DNA of 64,000 nt, from the NCBI RefSeq assembly GCF_000447795.1, contig NZ_AUNI01000009.1, positions 186,001 through 250,000 of the forward strand, written 5' to 3'. The stretch is from Bacteriovorax sp. Seq25_V (GTDB taxonomy: Bacteria > Bdellovibrionota > Bacteriovoracia > Bacteriovoracales > Bacteriovoracaceae). A program made the translations under genes and the position numbers. Under the pieces are notes generated by a model, which saw only the letters and a program-made list of their open reading frames with translations, was not told the DNA's origin and did not search any database. This document shows, piece by piece, positions 28,806-36,691 of the stretch (its first letter is position 1; each line of letters begins with the position of its first letter).

Positions 28806-30881
28806 ATGGATGGTATTTTCGGGCGTTTTAAGTTCTTAACGCAGAACTCGGATCTAGCTGTAGCTATAGCTCTACTGGCAGTTCTGGGCGTAATGATTAT
28901 TCCAGTTCCACCATTCTTACTAGACTTACTACTCGCTTTAACTCTTTCATTCTCGGTTATTATTCTTTTAGTTTCTGTATATACAAAGAAGCCTTTGGAC
29001 TTCTCAACTTTTCCGGCCGTTCTACTTGTAACGACACTATTTAGACTTTCTCTTAACGTTGCTTCGACAAGAAATATTCTTTTGAGAGGTGGTAGTGAAG
29101 GTGTTAGTGCTGCGGGTGAGATCATTCGAAGCTTTGGAGAGTTTGTTGTTGAAGGTAACTTCGTTGTCGGTATTATCGTTTTCATAATTCTTGTAATTAT
29201 CAACTTCATGGTTATTACAAAAGGTGCTGGAAGGGTAGCTGAAGTTGCAGCAAGATTTACATTAGATGCGATGCCAGGTAAGCAGATGGCAATTGATGCT
29301 GATTTAAATGCTGGTCTGATCAATGACCAACAAGCAAAAACGAGACGTGCTGAAGTTGCGCAAGAAGCAGACTTTTACGGGTCGATGGATGGTGCTTCGA
29401 AGTTCGTTCGAGGAGATGCTATTGCGGGTATCTTAATTACGGCCATTAACATTATCGGTGGGATTATTGTTGGTGTAGCTCAAAATAATATGAGCTTTGG
29501 CCAAGCTGCTGAAACCTTCACTCTATTAACGGTTGGGGATGGTCTTGTATCGCAGGTTCCGGCCCTTATCATTTCGACTGCTGCTGGTATTATCGCAACA
29601 AGAAATACTTCTGATGATAATCTTGGTGAACAGGTTGGTAAGCAGTTTAAACTGCACCCAAAAGCAATTTATATTGCAGCTAGTTTTCTTCTGGTCTTTG
29701 CTCTTATTCCAGGTCTTCCAAAGGTACCATTCATAACAGTAGGTTTAACACTGATTTTTGTTGCAAATAGAATTGAAAAAGGTGCACTAAAAGCAATTGA
29801 GATTGAGAAATCTAAAGTTGTTGAAGAGAAAAAAGCAACTCCTGACTCACTCGAAGACTTATTGTCTCTTGAGCTTGTCGAGCTTGAAGTTGGTTATGGA
29901 CTTGTAAACTTAGTCGACTCTTCACAAAATGGTGATCTTCTTGAACGTATCACTTTCATGAGAAAACAATTTGCACTAGATTGGGGTGTTATTATTCCAT
30001 CTGTAAGAATTAAAGATAACCTGGAATTAAAACCAGGTGGATATAGTGTGAAAATAAAGGGTATTGAAGTTGCTAAGGGTGAGCTTGTTCCTGATCACTA
30101 CCTTGCGATGGATCCTGGTACTGTTATTGAAAAAATAGATGGAATTGAAACTGTTGAGCCAGTATTTGGGCTTCCTGCTGTTTGGATTTCAGAAGATCAG
30201 CGTGATGATGCTGGTTATAACGGGTATACTGTAGTTGATTTATCAACTGTTGTGGCAACTCACTTAACTGAGATCTTAAAGTCTAATTTACATGAATTAT
30301 TTGGAAGGCAAGAACTTGTAAGAATCATGGATAATTTCAAGGAACAATATCCAAAAATCGTGGCCGATTTGATACCAGAAATTCTTCCTTTGGGAACAAT
30401 CCTGAAAGTTTTACAAAATCTTCTGCGTGAAAATGTTTCTGTAAGGGATTTACGAACAATTCTTGAGACTCTCTCTGAATATGGTACAATGGTTAAGGAT
30501 GCAGACTCTTTAACTGAGTACGTTAGACAGTCTTTATACCGATCTATAACTGAAGCAATTAAGAGTGAGCAAGGCGATATTCCTCTGTTTACTTTAGATC
30601 GAAAAATTGAAGAACAAATTGCTGGTAATCTTATTCAAACTGAAAGTGGGCAGCAGTTATCTCTTGATCCAAGAATAACTCAGACAATACTTGCAAGTTT
30701 AAATGAGAAAATTGAAGAGGCTACAAATTTGGGTGAGAAAATGGTTGTACTTTGTTCTCCTGTCATTAGAAATCATTTTAAGAAATTGACAGAAAAATTT
30801 ATCCCGAATTTGATAGTAGTAAGTCATAATGAATTAAGCCCTGATGCAAACATCAGGTCTCTTGGAACTGTGAGGTTATAG
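28806..30881 (+). CDS. flhA: Flagellar export apparatus protein FlhA
   Basis: FlhA is the export channel and docking platform. The 691-residue protein has seven to eight membrane helices in the first 330 residues, the FHIPEP-type motif region (RVAEVAARFTLDAMPGKQMA, DADLNAGLI, FYGSMDGASKFVRGDAIAG), and the large cytoplasmic domain that binds export chaperones. All hallmark segments are intact. AGGAG ribosome binding site. One base separates its stop from flhF. Confidence 0.97.
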   Translation: MDGIFGRFKFLTQNSDLAVAIALLAVLGVMIIPVPPFLLDLLLALTLSFSVIILLVSVYTKKPLDFSTFPAVLLVTTLFRLSLNVASTRNILLRGGSEGVSAAGEIIRSFGEFVVEGNFVVGIIVFIILVIINFMVITKGAGRVAEVAARFTLDAMPGKQMAIDADLNAGLINDQQAKTRRAEVAQEADFYGSMDGASKFVRGDAIAGILITAINIIGGIIVGVAQNNMSFGQAAETFTLLTVGDGLVSQVPALIISTAAGIIATRNTSDDNLGEQVGKQFKLHPKAIYIAASFLLVFALIPGLPKVPFITVGLTLIFVANRIEKGALKAIEIEKSKVVEEKKATPDSLEDLLSLELVELEVGYGLVNLVDSSQNGDLLERITFMRKQFALDWGVIIPSVRIKDNLELKPGGYSVKIKGIEVAKGELVPDHYLAMDPGTVIEKIDGIETVEPVFGLPAVWISEDQRDDAGYNGYTVVDLSTVVATHLTEILKSNLHELFGRQELVRIMDNFKEQYPKIVADLIPEILPLGTILKVLQNLLRENVSVRDLRTILETLSEYGTMVKDADSLTEYVRQSLYRSITEAIKSEQGDIPLFTLDRKIEEQIAGNLIQTESGQQLSLDPRITQTILASLNEKIEEATNLGEKMVVLCSPVIRNHFKKLTEKFIPNLIVVSHNELSPDANIRSLGTVRL

Positions 30882-30882
30882 G

Positions 30883-32376
30883 ATGTACGTTAGGAAGTTT
30901 GAGGCAGACTCATTGGAAGAGGCGCTCAGTGACATCAAGAGAGAATTAGGCCCAGATGCCATTATCTTGAAGACAACTTCAAGTAAAGGCTTGAAAGGTG
31001 CTTTTATGAAGAAGAGAATCGAAATTACTGCTGCAATTTCGGAGAAGAGTTATTCGAAAAAAGCAAAAGTAGATACGATTCTTGATCCAGAACAAAAAGA
31101 TAAATTCTATTCAAACAAATCAAGTTATATATCAAATATGATTGATAATGCTACAGGTGATAGAAAAGCGAAAGCAACAGCCGCAAGTGGTTATGGAAAA
31201 GTCGCTTTGAATAAGCCTGTTGCTACGAGTGCTCCAGAGATGACTTCTTCTCTTGATCATTTCTTAAGTGAAGATACTCCTACTAAAAATTCAGTTAAAT
31301 CATTTGATGATTTCTTAAGTGAGAGAGATGGTGCGCTTGATGAAGAAATCAAAATTGATTATTCAAGTAATTATGAGCAAACTCACGCTCAGGATATGGA
31401 AGAAGAGGAAGATGATTTTGAAGAAATTTATCAACCGCAACAGCAAAGTCAAACTCAAAATAGAGCTGAGACTAGAATTGTTTCAACTCCAGATAGAACA
31501 TACGATGCTCAAATAGAAGCACAGAAATCTAAAATTGATGAACTAGAAAAGAAATTATTTGAACTAACGAGAAATGTTCAATCTTTTAATAAACCAGAAG
31601 CCCTAGGGATTCAGGAACTAATGTCAAGCCTAAGAAGCCTAGATATTGAAGATACATTTATTCAGAAGGTTGTGAGAAAAGCTCACTTTGAGTTATCAGC
31701 AACAGATAAAGAAGATGCAGATGTAGTATTTGATTTCGCTTTAAGAGAGATGCTAAGTGAAATTAATGTTCAAATGCCACTTTTCTCTTCTGTTGATAAT
31801 GCTGAGAAGAAAGTTGTTACAGTTGTAATCTCAGATGTAACAAGTGGTCAGAGTACAATGCTAAGAAAGATTGCTTCTTTGAAGAAAGATTCAGTAATCG
31901 TAAGAAACAAAGGTTCTGAAGAATTTAAAGAAGGAGAGACGTTCTCTGAGAAATTCTTTGGAATTGAAACTAAGGTTTGTAAAACAATTTCAGAAATCGT
32001 TGCTGCAACAAGAAATAGCTTAGAATCAAAGAATAATGTATTTATTGATTACAAGGCCGGAAATCAAGAAGTAAACGAAGTGAAGAAATTTATAGATGGG
32101 TTAAAAAGATCTTTTGAAAATGTGGAAATTTTAGTCTGTCTTTCTTCTATTAATTCTGAATTGTATAATAGAAAAGTGCTAAATCGCTACAGCAGTTTAG
32201 CAAATGGAATGATTGTTACACACTTAGATCAGTGTTTGAATTTTGGGTCATTATTTAATCTAGCGATAGATTTTAATAAATTACCTTATAAGTTTTTTGG
32301 AACAGGTGAAGTTGTTCCTGATGACCTAGAAGCTGCAACTGCCGAAAGGATTTTGGCGGGGATTTTTCAACTTTAG
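30883..32376 (+). CDS. flhF: FlhF-like SRP-family protein with degenerate GTPase motifs
   Basis: FlhF sets flagellar position and number. The 497-residue protein has the FlhF N-terminal B domain (MYVRKFEADSLEEALSDIKR, GPDAIILKTTS), a long acidic, glutamine-rich linker (about 60-215), an N domain and a G domain. The G domain is degenerate. At residues 317-325 the P-loop (normally GPTGxGKTT) reads SDVTSGQST, so the catalytic Lys is Gln and most glycines are gone. The usual DTAGR-type motif is IDYKAGN near 388, and TKLD is THLD near 446. The C-terminal VPDDLEAATAERI is typical of FlhF. Operon position (flhA-flhF-flhG) supports identity. GTP binding is doubtful. Confidence 0.88.
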   Translation: MYVRKFEADSLEEALSDIKRELGPDAIILKTTSSKGLKGAFMKKRIEITAAISEKSYSKKAKVDTILDPEQKDKFYSNKSSYISNMIDNATGDRKAKATAASGYGKVALNKPVATSAPEMTSSLDHFLSEDTPTKNSVKSFDDFLSERDGALDEEIKIDYSSNYEQTHAQDMEEEEDDFEEIYQPQQQSQTQNRAETRIVSTPDRTYDAQIEAQKSKIDELEKKLFELTRNVQSFNKPEALGIQELMSSLRSLDIEDTFIQKVVRKAHFELSATDKEDADVVFDFALREMLSEINVQMPLFSSVDNAEKKVVTVVISDVTSGQSTMLRKIASLKKDSVIVRNKGSEEFKEGETFSEKFFGIETKVCKTISEIVAATRNSLESKNNVFIDYKAGNQEVNEVKKFIDGLKRSFENVEILVCLSSINSELYNRKVLNRYSSLANGMIVTHLDQCLNFGSLFNLAIDFNKLPYKFFGTGEVVPDDLEAATAERILAGIFQL

Positions 32377-32408: not shown

Positions 32409-33305
32409 ATGTCCAAGCAAGAGCTTAACCAGTGGTTAATGTCACATCGAAGTGACGTTAACTCTGAAGTGAATGTAAATCTACAATCATTTCAAACACA
32501 CGCGAAAAACACACAAATAATTGCAATTGCCTCAGGAAAAGGGGGAGTAGGTAAAACTACTATATCTCTAATGCTTGCTAGACAGTTAGCAGCAGATAAG
32601 AAAGTTTTACTAATTGATTGTGATTATAATCTTTCTAACACAGCTGTAAAACTGGGTCTTCCACTAAATGATAATTTCTATTCATTACTTTCACTTGAAA
32701 AAACATTTGAAGAATGTATTTATCAAGAAGGGAACTTACATCTATTAAGTGGATGTAATGGAAGCACTGATATCTTTGACTCAAGCTTCGAGCATGACAG
32801 ATTTATCATCGATATTATCAACGAACATAAGCATGACTATGATTACGTTATTCTTGATTGTCCTGCTGGATTAAATAAAGAGACCGTTAATCTTACGGCC
32901 TATGCTGATGCCAGATTTATGGTGGTAAATCCTGATAAATCTTCACTAACTGATACGTACGCATTAGTAAAAATTTTAAGTCAAAGATACCAAGTAAATA
33001 CAAATCACCTTATTGTGAATAGGGTTTCAAGTAATCACCAATATCAAAGAGTAGTGAAGTCGCTACATGACACAATCTCATCATTCCTAAATGGAAGACT
33101 GAAAGTATTAGGTGCTGTAAAGGCTTTAGAACTTCCTATTGATGAGTTCGATCGCAATCTAAATAAAGGGGCAAATAATTCCCTTGAGAAATATTTATCT
33201 AAAATCGTAAGCAAGTATACCGACGAGAGCACTGGTACCATTTTGTTTGGGGCCCAAAGTAAATCTTTAACGTCAGTAGGACATGTTGCTTCGGCAGCAA
33301 TTTAG
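32409..33305 (+). CDS. flhG: FlhG/YlxH-type MinD-like ATPase
   Basis: FlhG is the MinD-like regulator of flagellar number. The 298-residue protein has an intact deviant Walker A motif (SGKGGVGKTT), a Walker A-prime motif (LLIDCDYNLSN) and a Walker B motif (VILDCPAG). A C-terminal amphipathic segment is less clear. The N-terminal DQAxxLR activating motif reported for some FlhG proteins is not evident (opens SKQELNQWLMSHR). It follows flhF by 32 bases and precedes fliA. Contrast: its ATPase is intact while FlhF's GTPase is not. Confidence 0.93.
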   Translation: MSKQELNQWLMSHRSDVNSEVNVNLQSFQTHAKNTQIIAIASGKGGVGKTTISLMLARQLAADKKVLLIDCDYNLSNTAVKLGLPLNDNFYSLLSLEKTFEECIYQEGNLHLLSGCNGSTDIFDSSFEHDRFIIDIINEHKHDYDYVILDCPAGLNKETVNLTAYADARFMVVNPDKSSLTDTYALVKILSQRYQVNTNHLIVNRVSSNHQYQRVVKSLHDTISSFLNGRLKVLGAVKALELPIDEFDRNLNKGANNSLEKYLSKIVSKYTDESTGTILFGAQSKSLTSVGHVASAAI

Positions 33306-33319
33306 ACAAGGAGTGCTCA

Positions 33320-34105
33320 ATGTCATCTTTAGCGAAAAAACTTAAAAACTTAAAAGATTACAGATCAACGGTTGACCCAAAGGTTAAAGATGAAATCGTT
33401 GTAGAATATGCTCCACTTATTAAATATATTGCGCAAAAAATTGCTTCAAGACTTCCTGCTAATATTGAACTTGATGACCTAATTTCATGCGGTGTTATTG
33501 GTTTAATGGATGCTATTGAGAAGTTTGACCCTTCACGTGACAATAAATTCAAAACATATGCTGAATTTAGAATTAGAGGAGCAATCCTTGATGAACTTAG
33601 AGCACAGGATTGGGTTCCAAGATCGATTAGAGAAAAAGCTAAAGTTATCGATAGAGCATACTCAAAACTTGAGGCAGAGCTAGGAAGACCAGCTACTGAT
33701 GAAGAAATGTGTGCTGAACTTGAGATGTCTAAAGAAGACTTCCATGACATGTTGAACAAAGCTAAATCAGTATCTATTCTTAATATTGATGACTCTGCAA
33801 CTTTCAATAGAAATGATAAAAGAACAATGGCCGGGATGAATGAGGATAGTAAGCATGTTAATCCATTCACAGCTGTAGCGAATAAAAACTTCAGAGATAA
33901 AATTAAAGAAGGAATTTCTCAGCTTCCAGAAAAGCAAAGATTAGTTCTTTCTCTTTATTACTATGAAGATTTAAATCTTAAGGAAATTGGTCAGGTTTTA
34001 GATGTTACTGAATCTCGTGTTTCTCAACTTCACACTCAAGCAGTAAGTAAGCTTAAAGCAAAGCTACAGACAATGTTTGAAGGTGTTGAAGATATGGTTA
34101 GTTAA
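33320..34105 (+). CDS. fliA: Flagellar sigma factor sigma-28
   Basis: The 261-residue protein is an RNA polymerase sigma factor of the FliA/WhiG type, for late flagellar and chemotaxis genes. Region 2 includes IELDDLISCGVIGLMDAIEK and YAEFRIRGAILDELRAQDWV; region 3 RSIREKAKVIDRAYSKLEAE; region 4 LPEKQRLVLSLYYYEDLNLK and VTESRVSQLHTQAV. These are typical of FliA. It ends the operon. A sigma-28-like promoter is present at 7302-7328 upstream of a chemoreceptor. Whether an anti-sigma FlgM exists is not shown here. Confidence 0.95.
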   Translation: MSSLAKKLKNLKDYRSTVDPKVKDEIVVEYAPLIKYIAQKIASRLPANIELDDLISCGVIGLMDAIEKFDPSRDNKFKTYAEFRIRGAILDELRAQDWVPRSIREKAKVIDRAYSKLEAELGRPATDEEMCAELEMSKEDFHDMLNKAKSVSILNIDDSATFNRNDKRTMAGMNEDSKHVNPFTAVANKNFRDKIKEGISQLPEKQRLVLSLYYYEDLNLKEIGQVLDVTESRVSQLHTQAVSKLKAKLQTMFEGVEDMVS

Positions 34106-34339: not shown

Positions 34340-36691
34340 ATGAAAATTAGGTTTGGAAAACCTCTTTATATTTATTTTGTATCAGCAATGATTCTAATTA
34401 TGGCAATGATGTCATTTGGGATTTATTACTATTGGACAAAGGGAACAGCTAATATTGATGGTGTTGCTCAAGTCTTTGATTCAACAACTGCTATTGAAAA
34501 CCTTGAGAAGAAAGGTGGAATTGAAACGGTAAAAGATCATGCACAAAACGATCGTCTACGTGATGCAATCTCTTACTTTGATGGGTTTGCTGAGAATGTA
34601 AAGAAGTTAGAAGAGGTTCAATCAACTGATAATTATGAAGAAATTACTAAATCATTTAATGCTCTAAAAAACTCAATGAGTAAGATGCTGACTTACACGA
34701 GTAATAACAACTTAATTGATGTTCTACGTTCAAAAGTAATTTCTTTTGAAAATTTTGTTGTTCACAATAACTGGAGAACACTAACAAGAGTTTCAAAGAA
34801 GATTAATGCAAAAATTTCAAGTGGTGCGACAAGCTCTCCAGGTTTTTTTAGCTATAGAAAAATGAAGTCGCTACATGATTCACTTGAAGCTGATATTAAA
34901 TATATGGAGAGTGTTACGATGAGTTCTGTTCTTGCTCAAGAAGATAAGAACTTAATTCTTTTAAAGTTGGATACATTAAAGACTGAATTAAATATGATGG
35001 ATGAGTCTCTTAACTCTCTAAATGTGTTTCATGCAAGTTATATCAATGCGGAAGCGGCTTACAAAAATTGGTTAGTTGAAATCAAGCCACGTTTAACAGA
35101 AAGAAAGTTAGATGTTATCAAAAATTCTCAAACTATACTTTATGGAATGTTTGGTCTCACTGCTGTTGTTATATGTTTGTTTGCTGGGGGATATCTTGTT
35201 TACTTTAAGTATGGAAGAAAGCAAAAAGAAGAAGTTGAAAAAATCATTATGTCTGTGATCAAGGATAATTTAATTCCATTAAATACAGAACTTGATAAAT
35301 CATGGAGTGTAGACTTTAAAGATAATTTAGAAAAGTATAGAGAGTATGTTCACAAGAGAATGAGTTTTGGATCAATCTTTCAAGATGCAATGCCATTTTC
35401 ATCAATACTATTAGACTCGAATCTGAATATGGTTTGGGCAAATACTCTTTTCTACGAGCATTGGAATCTTGATGAAAAAGTTAAAACAAATTCAAATATT
35501 TCTTGGGACTTTTTGCAGAGATTTACAAACCTAGGTGAGAATGATCCAGTAATTGAAGCTATTAGAGATAATATTGCTGGTATTTATCAAATTCAAGTTA
35601 AGACTGAAAAGTCTGAAGAAGCTGCTCCATTTGAAATGTATGTATCTCCAGTAGAATATGCAGGTCAAAAGAGAATCATGGTTATTTTCTATCCACTGAG
35701 AAGCTTGGAAGAAACACTTGGAAATCAGATGAAGGCCCTTGTATCTCCAGTGTCTAAAACTCTTGATGCCCTTGTCGAAGGTAAATTTCAAGGTGATTTT
35801 AAAGAGAAAGTTCAAGGTGATTTTGAAGCAGCAGGTATTGATCACATATTTAAGAAATTTGATAAAGTTAATGACTTCTTCAATAATCAAAGAAATGGTT
35901 TAATGGAAGAAATCGATACAATTGAAAACTCTCTCTTTGAACAATATAAACTAATGGATGACGTTAGAATTGTTTTTGAAGCTCAGAAAGATCTACAGCA
36001 TGAAGCAATTTCAAAATTCTCGAGTGCTAAGAATGATATCATTTCTGTGGTTGATATGAGATCTCAGTTTGAGCAAATGCTTACTCAAATGAATGAAATT
36101 GGAAACAGCTTGTTCGCAGAAGAAGTTTCTCTTCTTTCTCGAGCGAGTGAGGTGACTGACATTATGGGGGAAAACTCAAAAGCAATCGACTCCCTTGTAA
36201 AATCTCGTGATGAGTTTAAGAGATTAAAGTCACAAGTTGAAATGTTTAAATCAAGAGTTTCAAATATTTTAGAACATTCAAGAAACTCTGATGCTCCAAG
36301 CAAGAACGCCCAAGGTATCCAAAGATTGAAAACAGAACTTTTAGAATTTGAAAATGTTCTAACTTCTTTTTCTAAAGTTTCAACTGCCCTTGATGTTGGT
36401 TTATCAAAAATTCAAATCATTACTCAAAGTAAGAAGATGCCAAATCTATCTGATACGAAGAGAAGCTTTGAGGAGTTAAGAGCTCAAATCGAGGAAATCC
36501 AAGCAGAGAGTACGAAGATGGGAAGACTTGGGCAGGAAAGAGATGAGGAACTTATCAAGTCGCTAAAAGGACTGTTCTTAAGTTTCCAAAATCTAAGAGC
36601 GAAGTCTAATGAAGTAGAAGAAGTTTTAAATGAAGAGCCGGCAATGCCAATGCCACCTGATCATCAAGAGATTATTGCACAAGATATCTAA
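34340..36691 (+). CDS. Large membrane protein: helical sensor, PAS-like domain, long coiled coil
   Basis: The 783-residue protein has TM1 (9-29), a helical extracytoplasmic domain (30-262), TM2 (266-290), a PAS-like domain at about 345-455 (MPFSSILLDSNLNMVWAN, then PFEMYVSPVEYAGQKRIMVI) and a long coiled coil (500-760) with repeating heptads, ending in an acidic tail. It resembles a chemoreceptor or sensor kinase in outline but has no signalling hairpin, kinase or GGDEF domain. A motility link is suggested only by its place after fliA. CAGGAG precedes the ATG; a terminator follows. The 234 bases between the fliA stop and this gene hold a terminator, a tandem AAGCTTTTT repeat (34186-34203) and no gene. 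Confidence 0.75.
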   Translation: MKIRFGKPLYIYFVSAMILIMAMMSFGIYYYWTKGTANIDGVAQVFDSTTAIENLEKKGGIETVKDHAQNDRLRDAISYFDGFAENVKKLEEVQSTDNYEEITKSFNALKNSMSKMLTYTSNNNLIDVLRSKVISFENFVVHNNWRTLTRVSKKINAKISSGATSSPGFFSYRKMKSLHDSLEADIKYMESVTMSSVLAQEDKNLILLKLDTLKTELNMMDESLNSLNVFHASYINAEAAYKNWLVEIKPRLTERKLDVIKNSQTILYGMFGLTAVVICLFAGGYLVYFKYGRKQKEEVEKIIMSVIKDNLIPLNTELDKSWSVDFKDNLEKYREYVHKRMSFGSIFQDAMPFSSILLDSNLNMVWANTLFYEHWNLDEKVKTNSNISWDFLQRFTNLGENDPVIEAIRDNIAGIYQIQVKTEKSEEAAPFEMYVSPVEYAGQKRIMVIFYPLRSLEETLGNQMKALVSPVSKTLDALVEGKFQGDFKEKVQGDFEAAGIDHIFKKFDKVNDFFNNQRNGLMEEIDTIENSLFEQYKLMDDVRIVFEAQKDLQHEAISKFSSAKNDIISVVDMRSQFEQMLTQMNEIGNSLFAEEVSLLSRASEVTDIMGENSKAIDSLVKSRDEFKRLKSQVEMFKSRVSNILEHSRNSDAPSKNAQGIQRLKTELLEFENVLTSFSKVSTALDVGLSKIQIITQSKKMPNLSDTKRSFEELRAQIEEIQAESTKMGRLGQERDEELIKSLKGLFLSFQNLRAKSNEVEEVLNEEPAMPMPPDHQEIIAQDI

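Follow-up and report, generated by a model that had tools for sequence, protein, structure and literature searches.

Rewritten GTPase motifs in the flagellar placement protein FlhF of the Bacteriovoracia and a changed N-terminus in its partner FlhG

Background

FlhF is defined as an SRP-type GTPase that has to bind GTP for the flagellum to be placed at the pole. Pseudo-GTPase domains, in which G motifs are changed while the fold is kept, are reportedly found in the eukaryotic p190RhoGAP.

In Shewanella, FlhF acts as a tether, its N-terminal FID binding FliG and its NG domain binding the polar landmark HubP, and FlhG stimulates the FlhF GTPase and thereby moves the cycle on (PMC11236974). Known FlhG proteins carry an N-terminal DQAxxLR helix, the Gln of which is co-catalytic for FlhF (PMC12826062). 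In other species placement needs GTP binding rather than hydrolysis (PMC12713375; PMC6092412). The R334A variant of V. alginolyticus FlhF is hydrolysis-dead and still places flagella, single mutation of either T306 or D439 abolishes flagella, and K305A and K437A result in fewer flagella and less polar FlhF, K305A still forming some (PMC6092412).

Halobacteriovorax cells have a single polar flagellum (PMC5760749; PMC12724312), which indicates that polar placement goes on in this group. In the largely non-subscription literature covered by our search, neither a study of FlhF in Bacteriovorax or Halobacteriovorax nor a description of FlhF as a pseudo-GTPase was found. Here we follow up an initial annotation of a stretch of 64,000 nucleotides from Bacteriovorax sp. 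Seq25_V, referred to as the window, in which FlhF was proposed to have lost its GTPase site.

Results

The flhF gene and its neighborhood

The window encodes a pseudo-GTPase form of FlhF of 497 aa on the forward strand (30883..32376), assigned from its open reading frame, TIGR03499, PF00448, an AlphaFold/PDB match, and synteny. The frame starts with ATG and contains no internal stop. Translation and alignment confirmed the reading of the initial annotation, which had reported an intact frame with SDVTSGQST at 31831-31857 and Gln in place of the catalytic Lys. All neighboring genes considered are located on the same strand. The export gate gene flhA precedes flhF (28806..30881; PF00771, E 3.3e-275 at G000:C9:214881-216848), and flhG (32409..33305) follows it, encoding a MinD-type ATPase of 298 aa with the Walker A motif GKGGVGKTT, PF13614/PF01656 matches above cut-off, and a model pTM of 0.76. 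The next gene is fliA for sigma-28 (33320..34105), recognized as an open reading frame in syntenic position and named by comparison and operon place. The order flhA-flhF-flhG-fliA is the orthologous position of FlhF in the flagellar operon, in line with the earlier statement that the gene keeps its place, and flhG was found directly 3' of flhF in 87 loci of the class.

With the NCBIfam FlhF profile TIGR03499 the protein scored 63.8 bits, below the cut-off of 174.15, and it may thus be overlooked or misnamed in automatic annotation. PF00448 (SRP54) matched with 30.9 bits at a cut-off of 22.7, most of the match falling within the latter half of the G domain. Four parts can be distinguished. The B domain (residues 1-65; 30883..31077; pLDDT 65-87) is the best-conserved part throughout the class. 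G23, P24, A26, I28, L29, K30, T31, E47, T49, and A50 of this domain, also called FID, are invariant in the class alignment and largely common to FlhF proteins outside the class. It is followed by a variable, mostly disordered linker (residues 66-245; 31078..31617) with a pLDDT below 50 over residues 95-203, a helix at its end (205-236), and the highest dN/dS of the four parts. The N domain (residues 246-307; 31618..31803) is all-helical with a pLDDT of mostly 90-93. The pseudo-G domain (residues 308-497; 31804..32373) has the SRP-GTPase fold and a low dN/dS. Conservation of the N-terminal domain and of the C-terminal VPDDLEAA had already been noted and holds.

PF00448 gave two hits above the cut-off on other contigs of this genome, presumably Ffh and FtsY. 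Since these were the only two canonical SRP-type GTPases, the presence of a second, canonical flhF, which would have spoken against the initial annotation, was refuted.

A nucleotide site rewritten throughout the class

The rewritten P-loop (31831..31857, forward strand, residues 317-325) is encoded by TCAGATGTAACAAGTGGTCAGAGTACA, read as TCA GAT GTA ACA AGT GGT CAG AGT ACA. The resulting SDVTSGQST, with S317, G322, Q323, and S324, aligns onto GPTGVGKTT of canonical FlhFs. For comparison, we used 94 class loci of FlhF (70 sequences at below 80% identity, with a few genomes represented twice) and an outside set of 43 FlhF loci from other classes of the same phylum (37 at below 80% identity). 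The position of the P-loop Lys is occupied by Gln in all 94 class loci and by Lys in all 43 outside loci. The first loop Gly is replaced by Ser (S317) in 93 of the 94, and the third and last, G322, is kept in 93. The Ser/Thr after the Lys position (324) is kept in 92 of the 94 loci, and the Mg-binding Ser/Thr is replaced by Phe, Asn, or Ala in three class sequences. A further 18 FlhF sequences on named contigs share the Gln state, and the cultured isolates DB6_IX, BSW11_IV, and H. marinus 36_234_T64 are among those that agree. Three of 80 named loci were left unscored: in one no FlhF was found, one has a stop codon in frame (G127), and one reads GQAS (L189).

The remaining G motifs are changed as well, as the initial annotation had stated for G3 and G4. 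At the G3 position, canonically DTxG, the window protein has DYKA (32047..32058) within IDYKAGN; D389 is present in 93 of 94 loci and the Gly is lost class-wide. Residue 391 is Lys in 43 and Arg in 21 of the 70 non-redundant class sequences, resulting in DxK/R. The G4 position reads THLD (32218..32229) instead of [TS]KxD. D449 is kept wherever a class locus reaches it, the G4 Lys is replaced by His (60), Asn (17), or Tyr (10) in 87 of the 94 loci, and the Glu following G4 is lost. The G2 pattern D[ST][YF][RK] after the P-loop, a segment leading into ADQLxxYA in canonical FlhF, occurs in none of the 94 class loci as compared to 26 of the 43 outside loci, and the catalytic G2 segment is unconserved in the class. 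In the place of the canonical SATTR..D, a class-specific block is found, SSINSELYNRK in the window (32143..32175), with the consensus SAIHSExYN[RK]K. The strict pattern of this block matched 81 and a relaxed one 91 of the 94 class loci, and neither matched any of the 43 outside loci. The G5 region FGTG is kept.

Instead of the SRP-type motifs GxxGxGKT, DTxG, and [TS]KxD, the class thus has SxxxxGQ[ST], DxK/R, and [ST][HNY]xD. Because the defining GTPase motifs are missing, the protein is an FlhF by descent and fold, not an FlhF GTPase. Non-conservative substitutions in the G motifs combined with a kept fold are the sequence features by which pseudo-GTPases have been described (PMC10731463).

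In the FlhF tree a single branch with an SH-aLRT of 100 divides the class from the outside sequences, so one origin of the class form is the simple reading. The class branch is very long and carries a warning of long-branch joining; the placement of the class inside the phylum was left unused. The Lys-to-Gln exchange is a class-wide trait, neither local decay nor chance. The question raised by the initial annotation, whether the loss is shared by relatives, is answered for the whole class.

Selection and fold

Among 250 NG-domain sites ranked by conservation within the class, Q323 is second, D449 sixth, K329 eighth, D389 14th, and S317 18th. The top-conserved class-specific sites of the NG domain are C451, Y428, N429, S421, E426, and F471. 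Pairs with saturated dS were ignored, and for the six closest pairs, with a G-domain dS of 0.56-0.82, the G-domain dN/dS was 0.02-0.07. Judging from these sequence comparisons, the site is remodelled and frozen under strong purifying selection rather than destroyed. The initial annotation is thus right about the rewritten motifs, but its description of the site as destroyed was overstated with respect to binding, as G322, S/T324, D389, and D449 are kept.

As no significant hit among PDB sequences was obtained in a phmmer search with the single FlhF protein, fold comparison was used. The AlphaFold model has a pLDDT of mostly about 90 or more across the NG domain. Its best PDB match in Foldseek was 2px3 (FlhF with GTP/Mg; E 6.8e-12, target TM 0.74), followed by other SRP GTPases, which assigns it to the SRP-GTPase NG fold. 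The length of the P-loop is unchanged in the model, with a strand at 312-317, the loop, and a helix from 323.

The activator helix of FlhG is replaced

The N-terminus of the window FlhG, MSKQELNQWLMSHRSD, contains a segment (32415..32444, forward strand) in which NQWLMS replaces the DQAxxLR helix, as judged from motif counts; it is modelled as a weak helix (3-12) with a pLDDT of about 40. The DQAxxLR enhancer helix was found in none of 87 class FlhG loci and in 17 of 28 outside the class. At about the same place, 85 of the 87 class loci and none of the 28 outside loci have a new Trp-Leu motif with the consensus (A/T)S(E/D)WLLS(Q/F/H)N. In the AlphaFold model, this short low-confidence helix is connected via a disordered tether to a confident MinD-like domain. 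The deviant Walker A motif GKGGVGKT of the MinD type is invariant across the class alignment. Hence, of the earlier view that FlhG is intact, the kept Walker A motif is correct, but FlhG is not unchanged.

Outside the class, FlhG proteins with DQAxxLR are paired with an FlhF having DTxG and a G4 Lys/Arg in 17 of 17 cases, and those without it are paired with an FlhF eroded at G3 or G4 in 9 of 11. These pairings fit an order in which, we infer, loss of the activating helix comes first and is followed by erosion of the GTPase motifs, the class being the end point. The paired change of FlhF and FlhG points to the surface where both proteins meet.

Families f6 and f11, which belong to another part of the phylum, have FlhG proteins without DQAxxLR. 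In FlhF of family f6 (L040, L130, L132, L133, L136) the P-loop is kept, the G4 Lys is lost (TSLD, TGLD, NDLD), and G3 is altered (DFxG, DMPG, DCTG); FlhF of family f11 (L043) also keeps the P-loop. Their state is possibly an intermediate stage. In family f3 (L039, L041, L042) FlhF is shortened to 368-380 aa, has D[SC]PA at G3, and is missing the C-terminal VPDD, and FlhG is without any N-terminal extension.

Distribution and link with the flagellum

The class sample comprised 116 genomes, all of one family, and contigs with names assign the group to Bacteriovorax, Halobacteriovorax, Bacteriovoracaceae, and Halobacteriovoraceae. A protein search of relatives found FlhF in nearly all genomes of this family. 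FlhA is present in 108 of the 116, and all 108 have FlhF of the pseudo-GTPase form; the five genomes without FlhF are also without FlhA.

FlhA, FliG, FliF, and flagellin are absent from three genomes of genus g54 (G063, G077, G067; 94-99% complete), as is an orthologue of FlhG; because the assemblies are drafts, this absence is strong but not final. These genomes have kept a shortened pseudo-FlhF of 346-375 aa beside FliA (L070 1544-2671; L071 2109-3236; L072 1441-2481). Despite the absence of FliG it retains the B domain, and the closest pair has a dN/dS of 0.06 at a nearly saturated dS of 1.67. Directly upstream of flhF, the three genomes share a conserved open reading frame of 169-173 aa (L235 7026-7547; L236 6935-7444; L237 333-842). 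A candidate interpretation as FliM remnant was rejected at a profile comparison probability of 0.1%, and Pfam gave nothing above cut-off for this frame.

Discussion

Compared to the described FlhF proteins (B. subtilis 2px0/2px3, S. putrefaciens 8r9r; TIGR03499), the class FlhF has the same B domain, linker, N and G domains, NG fold, and operon place. It differs in the exchange of the P-loop Lys for Gln and of the first Gly for Ser, in the absence of G2, in DxK/R instead of DTxG, and in a G4 Lys mostly replaced by His. The class FlhG likewise resembles FlhG/FleN/YlxH in its Walker A motif GKGGVGKTT, its MinD-type domain, and its location directly downstream of flhF, but lacks DQAxxLR and has a new conserved N-terminal xxWLxS. 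The Lys lost from the P-loop is the residue changed in V. alginolyticus K305A. The V. alginolyticus variants are, however, single mutants made in the laboratory, whereas in the class both Lys residues are missing and the flagellum is polar nonetheless. The changes in the p190RhoGAP domains are said to be of the same kind. In septin pseudo-GTPases several G motifs are non-conservatively changed with the fold kept, as in the class FlhF, and interface contacts change together with the loss of GTPase activity (PMC10731463). Both are eukaryotic and share no descent with SRP-type GTPases, and in our case a whole bacterial class is fixed and the activating partner has changed too.

We consider it probable that the protein is a true FlhF that has turned into a hydrolysis-dead pseudo-GTPase scaffold and still positions the flagellum. 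The initial suggestion of a pseudo-GTPase with a possible scaffold function is well supported by the class-wide replacement of G1, G3, and G4, the loss of G2 and of the FlhG activator, purifying selection, and the AlphaFold model best matching FlhF. Since the Lys, the G2 segment, DTxG, and the activator are all missing, GTP hydrolysis is predicted to be very probably absent in the class. That GTP is not bound under physiological conditions either appears somewhat probable. In the class ancestor, the FlhF-FlhG GTPase cycle would have been dismantled on both sides. FlhF would have lost both the P-loop Lys and the G4 Lys, together with DTxG and the G2/catalytic segment, and FlhG the DQAxxLR helix that supplied the co-catalytic Gln. 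FlhF would then serve as a two-ended adaptor that holds the nascent basal body with its B domain (through FliG in the known model) and a polar or FlhG-side partner with its NG domain. The NG-NG contact normally formed by GTP would most likely be made permanently by remodelled residues, candidates being S317, Q323, DxK/R, the SAIHSExYN block, and C451, or by the Trp-Leu segment of FlhG, and regulation would rest on the intact ATPase cycle of FlhG. The more specific proposal of a constitutive scaffold onto which the Trp-Leu segment docks is tentative and holds rather less than an even chance. The binding partner of this segment could also be a molecule different from FlhF.

Some observations are not easily reconciled with a scaffold. 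A vacant pocket by itself does not explain the frozen Gln323, and the kept S/T324 and D449, which correspond to T306 and D439 of V. alginolyticus, together with G322 and D389 make a weak or altered nucleotide site possible. The pocket might still bind a nucleotide without hydrolyzing it. The ligand could be GTP, bound in an altered chemistry, or else GDP, ATP, or a signalling nucleotide, and dimerization or polar recruitment would still depend on it. The near-invariant Gln323 and Ser317 look like a site with a ligand, FGTG at G5 is kept, SRP-type GTPases can bind ppGpp (7o9f and 7o9g are among the PDB matches), and it is binding, not hydrolysis, that matters in other species (PMC12713375). We nevertheless regard a ligand-dependent FlhF as unlikely, because the site has lost the P-loop Lys along with two of its three loop Gly, G2, the G3 Gly, and the G4 Lys, because Phe, Asn, or Ala stand at the Mg-binding position in three sequences, and the only invariant Lys near the loop, K329, is common to canonical FlhFs and thus no replacement. 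Alternatively, selection may maintain a job of FlhF beyond flagellar placement, e.g. as polar organizer or partner of the FliA programme, rather than flagellar GTP signalling. Genus g54, in which a constrained pseudo-FlhF stays beside FliA in genomes without FlhA, FliG, FliF, flagellin, and FlhG, suggests this. Seven other genomes without FlhA, two of them only about 66% complete, also show no FlhF, however, and therefore such a job is not general. Moreover, flhF sits in the flagellar operon in flagellated members, and the FlhF of g54, which deviates most in length, is possibly a special case, which makes a second job as the maintained function unlikely. A combination of both ideas, in which FlhF is nucleotide-independent throughout the class, a protein-protein switch takes over from the GTP switch, with the Trp-Leu helix of the FlhG ATPase docking either at the SAIHSExYN surface of FlhF or at its rewritten pocket, and the scaffold has an extra-flagellar role, would account for g54 having kept FlhF after the loss of the flagellum, and appears quite unlikely.

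The initial annotation had also considered that FlhG by itself, or other factors, might account for placement. This would make FlhF a decaying relic, for which the lost GTPase motifs could be cited, as could the lack of matches to DUF2802 (FipA), a candidate for a remaining polar receptor, among the 36 sampled class genomes, a weak negative. Retention of FlhF in every FlhA-bearing genome sampled and the high conservation ranks of pocket residues instead indicate that FlhF is doing work, and relaxed selection was ruled out by dN/dS and by class-wide conservation across more than 40 genera. A relic is hence very improbable. The chance that misassembly, a wrong frame, or a paralogue accompanied by a canonical FlhF elsewhere misled us is negligible, given the syntenic place and the repetition of the Gln state in cultured isolates and independent assemblies.

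With the pseudo-GTPase scaffold as the favored reading, a class of polar-flagellated predators appears to place its flagellum without the usual GTP cycle. The class can be considered a natural separation-of-function experiment on which parts of FlhF, such as the B domain and the NG surface, suffice for placement, and its FlhF/FlhG pair bears on the necessity of the GTP cycle as such. With one lineage having kept FlhF but no flagella, a role independent of the flagellum can be put to the test.

A few further observations were made in the window and in the sampled genomes. DUF2802 matches occur in families f6 and f11 (G040, G054; L220, L221). In the window, positions 34340-36691 downstream of fliA encode a protein of 783 aa. 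The genome of the window has four FliG_C matches (G000:C17, C14, C21, C9; L224-L227) in frames of 343 aa, 366 aa, and two short ones of 143-152 aa. Seven Flagellin_N matches each were found in this genome and in G012, both flagellated members of the class.
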